Source of the DNA: Tyto alba
Lineage: Eukaryota; Chordata; Aves; Strigiformes; Tytonidae
DNA length: 64,000 nucleotides
Direction: 5' to 3'
NCBI RefSeq assembly: GCF_018691265.1
Contig: NW_024881276.1
Location: 2,294,001-2,358,000 of the forward strand
Shown: positions 19,101 to 22,100 of the stretch, piece by piece
How positions within the stretch are numbered: position 1 is the first letter of the stretch
Layout of the letters: every line of letters begins with the position of its first letter
Program-made: the position numbers and the translations under genes
Notes under the pieces: generated by a model
The model's input: only the letters and a program-made list of their open reading frames with translations
Told to the model about the DNA's origin: nothing
Database searches by the model: none

Positions 19101-22100
19101 AGTTCCTTTCTGTTGCTGCTGTATCAAAAAGGAGGGTTCACTTACCACACGATTAGAACGGCAGCATCTACCCAGATCAGTCATAGCTAAGGTTGTACCT
19201 TGTAATGAAAATAAACACACATCTTTTTCTTCCCACTTCCCAATAAGTATAATCCAAAAGCCTCGCTCAACAATTTTTATACATAAACTGCCACAGAATT
19301 CTTACTATTAATGTAACTATCAAAATCCCACTAAAATAACATATAGTTTTCCAGCCTCCTATCAGGTATAAACTACAAAAGAAGTATTACAGAGTAATTT
19401 CAGAATATGTTATGAACAAATCTTACAAGCTTTCTCCAGAAGGAGAATTTTCAATAGTCAATTGTTATTTAGCCAGGAGATGTAACATTTTAAACCTGAC
19501 CATAAAAAAAAAAATATTTCATTTTTATAATGAAGTCATGAACAGTGAAATACAGTGAAATTCATGGGCATTTATCTTCATAATTAAAAGAAACTTTCAC
19601 AGTAGAAAAAACTTTCAGAGGAGTGCCACTAGAAACTAACTATTAAACTAAGAGAATCAGATTAAATTGCTGGAATAACTTTTTTTTCCCTAAAGTTACC
19701 CTCACAACAGTAAAATCAAAAAAAACATATCAAACAAATGAAAATATCCACTGGCTGTTATTATGTATTCTTTAGTGGAGATGTATAGAAAACTGCAGAA
19801 AACAGATGTTTTCCTTTCGCTATTTACAGTGTTAACAGAAACTGAGAATCCCAAAATACTGGCTGTTTTTCTGATTTTAATTTTATTATAAGGAGTAGTA
19901 TAAATTCAAGGCAGACAGACTATGGAATTACATACAGTCGCTTGGAACGGGAAAGAGTATTAGTAATTTTCAAAAAACCCACAGTTTATCCAAAAAAGTA
20001 CGCTACAATGAAAGCTGTATTTCACCAACTAAGCTTAGCTTGAGAAAGTTTTCCAAGAGGCTGAATAGCACCAAGAATAAATATTGTGATACTGATGCCA
20101 TCAATGTACTGGCCTCACAGCCGCTGCTCTAGCAGAGGCTACAGAGGTGCGAACTCACCAGCAAAAAATGGAGAGTATTGGCGATCAAGAAACTAATGTA
20201 AAATAATATTGGAGACAAAATAGTATCTGGTGATGTTTCCACATGCTCTTTTGGTTTTCAGTTGATCGTGACTGGCAAAAAATGAAGACTTGTGGACAGT
20301 AGAGGAATTTATCCCTCAGTATCCACTCCTGCCACCCCTCTCTGGGCACTTAATGTAAAAGAACTTATTGCTCACAAAAGCAAGCTTTGAGATTATGCAA
20401 AACACCAAGTAAGCAAAATAAAACGCATGATACTCAGGCTAGAGAGAAAAACAACTGCTGCATTCTTTTTCAGTCATCTGAAAAAAATCTGTGAAAGGAA
20501 GTGGTTCCCCGATTGCAAATTCTGCAAACCACGTCGTCTCTCACGGAGACAAGATACAGCTGGTCACCTGCATGGGCAGCAGCTCTGGTTGAATTTCTAC
20601 AAGCTTATGTTTATCCTTTCACTTGAGAAAGAAATACGTAGATTAAAATACCCCAAACTTTATGGACTTCCAACTCCCCCCTTCTACACAGCAGCAGCAA
20701 AGATAAGAGCAGAGTTTCCCCATAAACTCCTTTCTTAAATTGCAGAGCACTACGATTGAGATCCACCCGACATCCCCAGGGCGGCAGCTTCTCAGCTACC
20801 TCCCAGGGAAACAAACATCTTCCCTTTCCACGGCGAGATCAGCATCGGGAGAGAAGAAACCACCCGAGCAACACCCTGATGGGAATAACCGTCCAAAACA
20901 TCACGGGAAACACGGCAATGGTCATTTGGCCAAAAACGGCCAGTTGTGCCGACAGCTTTTACAGCATCATGTACCACCCTAACTGGAACAGCATGGTATC
21001 CAGTTACTCGAGAAAGAGCTTTCAGAAGGAAGAGAGGGTGCCTGCCAGTCGCTCCTCCTTCGTTCTTGAAAACCTAACCCCGCTAACAACATACATCTTG
21101 TGTGTGACCTGCCAGTCCGCAAACCCCTCCAGTGACCAGTGCAGAGTTTTTAACACGCTGGAACGAGACCCGGCCTCCGCGAGCAACACCAAAAAAGAGC
21201 TGGCGCTGGGCATCTGGCTCACCAGCAGCGTCCTGCTCCTTACCATCACCGCGATCCTCGTCTACGGCTGCCTGCACCTCCTCTACCGCAGGAGACGGGA
21301 GCGTCTGCAAGGCCAACCCGGGAGCTCCACACAAGGGCAGGGGGCCAAAAGCGCGGCGTGCGCCTCGGGGGAGCTCGGCAGGCAGAGCCGGCTGCTGCAG
21401 GACGCCAAGGATCCGGGTGGCATCCAGCTGGCCACGATCATAGAGAATCCCTCAGCCTCCGAGGAGCCCGTCACGCCGGCGTCCAAAAGCCAGGAGCGAG
21501 CGGCAGTGACAGGACAGAGCTCTGCTGTAAATTAGAAACCTTTATGTCAGGGAGGAAAGTTTTACCTTTCCGCATACGAAGAGCCCAACTGCTTCAAACG
21601 CTTCACACGTATTGTCGGCGCTCGCACCAGGGAGCGCCGACTGCTCCCCGCTGCTCCTCTGGTGTCACGTCCCTTTCCAGCAGCCCCGACGCAGCCAGAG
21701 GCACTCAGAGAAAAAGCTCCAGATTCCCAAGAAGTGAGTATTTCAGCTGCACTGCATTATTTAAAAATGAAGCATGCAGCAAATAACCGGTTTATATTTT
21801 GAGGGGACTTTTTTGGTTGCTTTTTTTTTTTTTTTTAGAAGTCCAGAACAGCAAACAAATATAAAAATGAATCAAAAGTGACCACAAGATTTTTTTTTTT
21901 TTTTCTTCTGGTTTTTACTAGCGTAAATTCAAACTGAGTAGAGGTTTTCAGATGGCAACCCAGCCTGCTACTACACTACAGGCAACTGGAACGTACACCC
22001 CGAGTGCAGTGGTCTGCCAGTAAGCTTCACCCCCACAATCCTGACTGCTTCTCAAACTACACACTACAGACTGCTAAACGCTGCCTACGCACTTCGCCGA

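Follow-up and report, generated by a model that had tools for sequence, protein, structure and literature searches.

An FNDC9-like gene nested antisense in CYFIP1 of the barn owl shares its host intron position with FNDC9 in CYFIP2

How did a gene resembling FNDC9 (alias C5orf40) come to lie antisense within an intron of CYFIP1 in the barn owl, Tyto alba? The window considered here, which is the whole 64,000-nucleotide stretch of DNA analysed, corresponds to C16:2294001-2358000 of a 1.25-Gb assembly of 70 contigs, and the whole assembly was searched. Human FNDC9 is placed in ‘intron 23’ of CYFIP2, and a genomic G>A that corresponds to C>T in the coding sequence puts it on the strand opposite its host (PMC10532311, in the portion available). 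This human arrangement, which the preliminary description of the locus had given as background, is therefore documented. No description of a CYFIP1-nested FNDC9 copy was found in the FNDC9 literature, mostly titles and abstract openings. The owl gene, hereafter FNDC9L, may thus be FNDC9 itself in a new host, a late copy of it, a relic, or the descendant of a guest that was already nested in the ancestor of both CYFIP genes.

The nested coding frame and its predicted product

The FNDC9L coding sequence occupies 20879..21535 on the plus strand as a single exon. Translation gave an intact frame from ATG to stop with 218 residues, as the preliminary description had reported, and database matches and an own-genome match without stops agree with it. 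A chance open frame was ruled out because 248 database proteins match FNDC9L at E <= 0.001. Database comparison was based on the best 120 of these 248 matches, of which one is the query itself, two are nameless and all others are named as birds, with 70-84% identity and lengths of 210-246 aa. Owls are at the top of the matches listed (Athene 84%, Strix 82%), with Bubo at 83%. Frame-breaking changes in relatives, which the preliminary description had thought worth seeking, were absent at the protein level from the 119 other clusters listed (best 120 of 248), all of 210-246 aa. FNDC9L is thus confirmed as a real member of a protein-coding gene family.

The predicted product begins with a fibronectin type III (FN3) domain at residues 1-95 (20879..21163, plus strand), assigned from AlphaFold2 strands, Foldseek FN3 matches and Pfam fn3. 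In the AlphaFold2 model, residues 4 to 92 contain seven strands, and a long helix follows at 98-144. The mean pLDDT was 68.2 for the whole protein, with ten-residue block means of 68-93 for residues 1-100 and values below 50 in the tail (148-218). Foldseek searches with this model returned FN3 domains on top (best 50 of 330 matches at E <= 0.001), and Pfam fn3 scored 24.9 bits (E 2.4e-5), 0.1 bit short of the cut-off of 25. A predicted transmembrane helix at residues 109-136 (21203..21286, plus strand) lies within the modelled helix and has RRRRER directly after it. The FN3 domain, transmembrane helix and tail of the preliminary description were accordingly recovered by AlphaFold2 and Foldseek, with Pfam fn3 just under its cut-off. 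Across the 120 rows (best of 248), mean column conservation was 0.955 for residues 1-95 and likewise 0.955 for the helix residues 109-136. Within the tail it was 0.733 for residues 146-178 vs 0.912 for 179-195, and a conserved 13-residue patch at residues 180-192 (21416..21454, plus strand) stands out from an otherwise variable region.

Proteins of the FNDC9 family carry an FN3 domain at the N-terminus and a single transmembrane helix after it, and the same features are predicted for FNDC9L; the cysteine set and the PNWNS-type segment of the family are also present. Cys23, Cys75, Cys78 and Cys88 of the FN3 region are invariant in 58 of 58 FNDC9L and FNDC9 rows, as is W36, and P34, N35 and N37 are nearly so. 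The IMYxPNWNS segment was found in both proteins, in agreement with the preliminary description. Basic residues after a transmembrane helix face the cytoplasm under the positive-inside rule, and the RRRRER side is therefore predicted to be cytoplasmic and the FN3 domain to face outward. The FN3 domain starts at the first residues and leaves no space for a signal peptide, so that the helix would serve as a signal-anchor. The product would then be a surface protein that spans the membrane once, with the FN3 domain outside and a short tail, bearing one conserved patch, in the cytoplasm.

A predicted 3' splice site at 20716..20746 on the plus strand (TTTCTTAAATTGCAG immediately before AGC), recognised from sequence only, would link a 5'UTR exon with the coding exon. 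A candidate polyadenylation signal, AATAAA, lies at 22700..22705 on the plus strand, with other candidates at 22417 and 23240. The guest would thus be a gene wholly inside one host intron; its own frame, predicted 5' splice junction and candidate polyadenylation signal suggest a promoter of its own and transcription opposed to that of the host.

A transcript of this kind has been reported. LOC104357634, described as ‘FNDC9-like’, is expressed in growing feathers of the barn owl by stranded poly-A RNA-seq; its RNA-seq level is raised in birds of rufous MC1R genotype, and RT-qPCR pointed the same way (PMC11799826, available in part). It is likely that LOC104357634 is FNDC9L of the window. In the same portion of that paper, FNDC9L is absent from the list of genes significant by RT-qPCR, and the main text makes no mention of CYFIP. 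From the published expression, we would guess at a role for FNDC9L in adhesion or as a receptor-type protein, in pigment or neural cells.

Host introns of the two nested genes

The first 26 coding exons of CYFIP1 as counted here (codons 1-1038) lie at 1051..55279 on the minus strand, and the 3' part of the gene extends beyond the window; exons were mapped by tblastn with a human CYFIP1 query. The host intron, coding intron 22 by this count, spans 14138..27406 (minus strand; 13,269 bases) and is of phase 0 after Lys892, as judged by exon mapping and splice sites. It is preceded by the exon of codons 863-892 (27407..27492, minus strand) and followed by that of codons 893-940 (13994..14137, minus strand), both placed by the exon map and by a match to human CYFIP1 in PDB 3p8c. 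FNDC9L therefore sits antisense within CYFIP1, between codons 892 and 893.

The preliminary description had named CYFIP1 as the host, and comparison with the other CYFIP of the same genome bears this out. The two copies differ at 98 of 968 comparable positions, and human CYFIP1 agrees with the window at 84 of these and with the other copy at 10; this count used the same human query and omitted positions with a poor local match. Over residues 797-1038 the exons of the window yield a full-length match to PDB 3p8c; the human sequence was checked against this entry over the same residues, where it agrees with the window at 24 of 30 differing positions and with the other copy at 5. CYFIP2 was thus rejected as the host.

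The guest-bearing intron (14138-27406; 13.3 kb) is the longest in the part of CYFIP1 within the window. Two direct copies of a roughly 1-kb interspersed repeat, 85% identical to each other, lie at 3875-4933 and 15853-16839, with an inverted fragment at 62799-62859; the copy at 15853-16839 shares the CYFIP1 intron with FNDC9L. Codons 662-720 are split in two exons in both CYFIP genes (36522-37052, minus strand; C19:10218620-10219342, plus strand), of 97 and 77 bases in CYFIP1. The human CYFIP2 splice variant p.Glu686_Ser744delinsAsp reads as a single 174-base exon (PMC11799376, in the part available), and this contrast could mean that the genes differ by an intron or that the variant skips two exons.

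Searching the barn owl genome with FNDC9L at E <= 0.001 identified two places only: FNDC9L itself and C19:10223443-10223895 on the minus strand, 44% identical. With bird FNDC9 as query, this threshold again yielded these two places and no other, at 95% identity on C19 and 41% on C16. The full frame on C19 (10223236-10223895, minus strand), delimited by these own-genome searches, is intact and free of stops, encodes 220 residues and runs from MNIEVHNITYTS to ILPQHGLQ, which is of FNDC9 type. The second FNDC9 that the preliminary description proposed to look for in CYFIP2 of this genome is therefore present.

The coding exons of CYFIP2 map to C19:10198276-10243016 on the plus strand. The exon of codons 863-892 ends at 10222398 and that of codons 893-941 starts at 10231077, which leaves a host intron at C19:10222399-10231076 (plus strand) of about 8.7 kb. 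FNDC9 lies antisense between these exons, as FNDC9L lies between their CYFIP1 equivalents. In both CYFIP genes the exon ends with AAG (Lys892) followed by GT, giving a phase 0 intron, and the exon that follows starts on a complete codon (GCA and CCT in the two genes). FNDC9L in CYFIP1 and FNDC9 in CYFIP2 thus agree fully in host intron, phase and antisense orientation; the comparison of host introns suggested in the preliminary description comes down to one and the same intron.

Alignment of the two host introns gave 389 columns at 60% within the guest coding sequence. Outside it, only a 33-base T-rich match (E 0.003) and one match at E 0.13 were found, and non-coding intron sequence therefore adds nothing to the case for common descent. 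For the human gene, PMC10532311 (available in part) numbers c.2386 as ‘exon 21’ and the FNDC9 site as ‘intron 23’, which is ambiguous by one. By the count of bird coding exons, intron 23 corresponds to the codon-892 intron only when the numbering starts with a non-coding exon, which would put c.2386 at the opening of exon 22. The exact human CYFIP2 intron that holds FNDC9 is not fixed by the literature in the portions available, including PMC10532311, PMC10967984 and PMC11799376.

Paralogous flanking genes accompany the nested pair. Exons of the NIPA family (PF05653), located by genome search, lie 3' of CYFIP1 at C16:2261677-2286984 on the strand opposite to CYFIP1, and 3' of CYFIP2 at C19:10254376-10259940 on the same strand as CYFIP2. 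The order of NIPA 3' of CYFIP is common to both loci; the orientation differs, facing CYFIP1 and co-directional with CYFIP2. The NIPA matches on C16 are grouped in two clusters, apparently two genes; further matches to the family are strong on C66 and C67 and weaker on C70 and C23.

Relationship of FNDC9L to FNDC9

A human FNDC9 query recovered 33 proteins and a profile built from six natural FNDC9 sequences recovered 53, together 55 different proteins. These come from mammals, birds, turtles, tuatara, caecilian, lungfish, coelacanth, Erpetoichthys and elephant shark. The profile search recovered no bird FNDC9L among its 53 proteins and is hence uninformative on FNDC9L outside birds; among the database matches listed for FNDC9L (best 120 of 248), the gene was seen in birds only.

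In a tree of 52 rows, the 22 FNDC9L sequences (of the 120 listed, best of 248; all birds) and the 30 FNDC9 sequences (of 55) fall on opposite sides of one branch with support of 100/100. FNDC9L thus lies outside the true FNDC9 orthologues in the tree that the preliminary description had called for, and is a separate paralogue of FNDC9 rather than an FNDC9 orthologue proper. Bird FNDC9 groups with turtle and tuatara FNDC9, in line with species relations. FNDC9L itself groups with the elephant shark sequence, apart from the FNDC9 of all bony vertebrates (96/81); here two long branches come together, the stem of FNDC9L and the branch of the shark, and the tree tool gave a warning to this effect. 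The tree favours a placement that would put the split of FNDC9L and FNDC9 near the base of jawed vertebrates. Both paralogues occur in Podilymbus (P0007, P0155), Falco peregrinus (P0100, P0156) and Buceros (P0039, P0159), in each case on contigs of unequal length. Both of the Podilymbus (grebe) paralogues carry the database name ‘FNDC9 protein’.

FNDC9 in CYFIP2 and FNDC9L share an FN3 domain and one helix, the four invariant cysteines, the PNWNS segment and a single-exon coding sequence, and in this genome both lie antisense in the intron after Lys892. However, FNDC9L is only 40-44% identical to bird FNDC9, its host is CYFIP1 rather than CYFIP2, its N-terminus is unlike the MNIEV of FNDC9, and it ends with TGQxSAxx in place of an AILP-type end. 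The AILP-type end, a mark of FNDC9 orthologues chosen here from the sequences seen, is not in the window protein or in bird FNDC9L. It appears as AILPQ in FNDC9 of bird, turtle, tuatara, lungfish and shark, as AILPH in a primate and as AILPT in a caecilian, with variants in platypus and a marsupial; it is absent from the shorter coelacanth and Erpetoichthys models.

Origin and meaning of the nested pair

Very probably, the nested gene was already inside an ancestral CYFIP before CYFIP1 and CYFIP2 arose by duplication and the two guests were passed down together, since the CYFIP2 of this genome carries FNDC9 antisense in exactly the corresponding intron. This is the reading that the preliminary description had advanced, and the same intron, phase and orientation, together with the separate clades and the NIPA genes beside both hosts, support it. 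The shared intron position is the main and strongest argument for a common origin with the host duplication. Under uniform insertion, an antisense landing in the codon-892 intron of CYFIP1 would be expected with a probability of about 6e-6 (54 kb of 1.25 Gb x 13.3 of 51 kb intron x one half), which argues that the guest shares its origin with the duplication of the host. Random insertion of a processed transcript was also considered and rejected. Host and guest share DNA, so that a block duplication would copy both at once. We infer that CYFIP1 and CYFIP2 owe their origin, and with it this duplication, to the whole-genome duplication of vertebrates, a dating that leans on background knowledge of CYFIP1/CYFIP2 and of the NIPA genes.

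A later origin of FNDC9L is improbable, though it is the most substantial of the alternatives. By this account, a copy of FNDC9 moved from CYFIP2 to the equivalent CYFIP1 intron by recombination or conversion and then evolved fast, as the long FNDC9L stem and its appearance in birds only among the matches listed (best 120 of 248) would allow. Approximately unbiased (AU) tests on all columns rejected neither a bird-only duplication (p 0.157) nor a sauropsid (0.28) or amniote (0.23) one. Core-column tests, confined to the alignment as far as residue 145, were run after these with the FNDC9 of this genome added; they rejected a bird-specific duplication (p-AU 0.011) but kept a sauropsid one (0.146). 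Against late transfer, FNDC9L keeps a fish or shark state missing in bird, sauropsid or amniote FNDC9 at nine sites, and the reverse holds at one, by thresholds set by the analyst. The nine include Ser41 and Asp86, two of them are in the tail, and the opposing site is in the variable tail. Furthermore, the guest would have had to move without any trace of host intron sequence.

Translocation of FNDC9 itself into CYFIP1 in this lineage is scarcely credible. Many bird proteins are named ‘FNDC9’ in databases, which would suit it, yet the intact 220-aa FNDC9 in CYFIP2 of the same genome and the 100/100 separation of the two clades refute it. A third alternative, that an old nested copy survives here as a relic in decay or without expression, is very unlikely as well. 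The window protein does depart from the majority at three sites that are at least 95% conserved in the 120 listed rows, but the FN3 and helix regions hold their mean conservation of 0.955 over 120 clusters, and the barn owl FNDC9-like transcript was detected by stranded poly-A RNA-seq and RT-qPCR (PMC11799826, available in part).

Inheritance of both guests from one nested ancestor finds a parallel in the synapsin genes. Reverse-oriented TIMP guests lie in synapsin introns as SYN1-TIMP1, SYN2-TIMP4 and SYN3-TIMP3, and were kept across the duplicated hosts (PMC2825198, in the part available). Like the CYFIP/FNDC9 pair, this is a reverse guest in a host intron, retained in several duplicated hosts; unlike it, the genes are unrelated to those considered here, TIMPs have five exons and the arrangement has been traced to invertebrates (PMC2825198, same portion). 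The CYFIP/FNDC9 pair is therefore a further example, with unrelated genes, of the established synapsin/TIMP-type arrangement.

A wider scenario is offered tentatively, as a possibility that we hold to be rather doubtful as a whole. A single CYFIP of early vertebrates may have held the antisense guest, which both whole-genome duplication copies kept; birds would use both, mammals would have dropped the CYFIP1 guest, and guest transcripts opposing CYFIP1 and CYFIP2 may tune these actin regulators in pigment or nerve cells.

Studies of nested genes usually concern a single host, and a guest that occupies one and the same intron in a pair of paralogous hosts provides a natural replicate for the question of what keeps one gene inside another. 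Separating FNDC9L from FNDC9 splits two bird proteins that go under one database name, which matters when bird FNDC9 expression and pigmentation data are read. Human CYFIP1 maps to 15q11.2, and the guest in bird CYFIP1 raises a testable question of loss at this locus in mammals.
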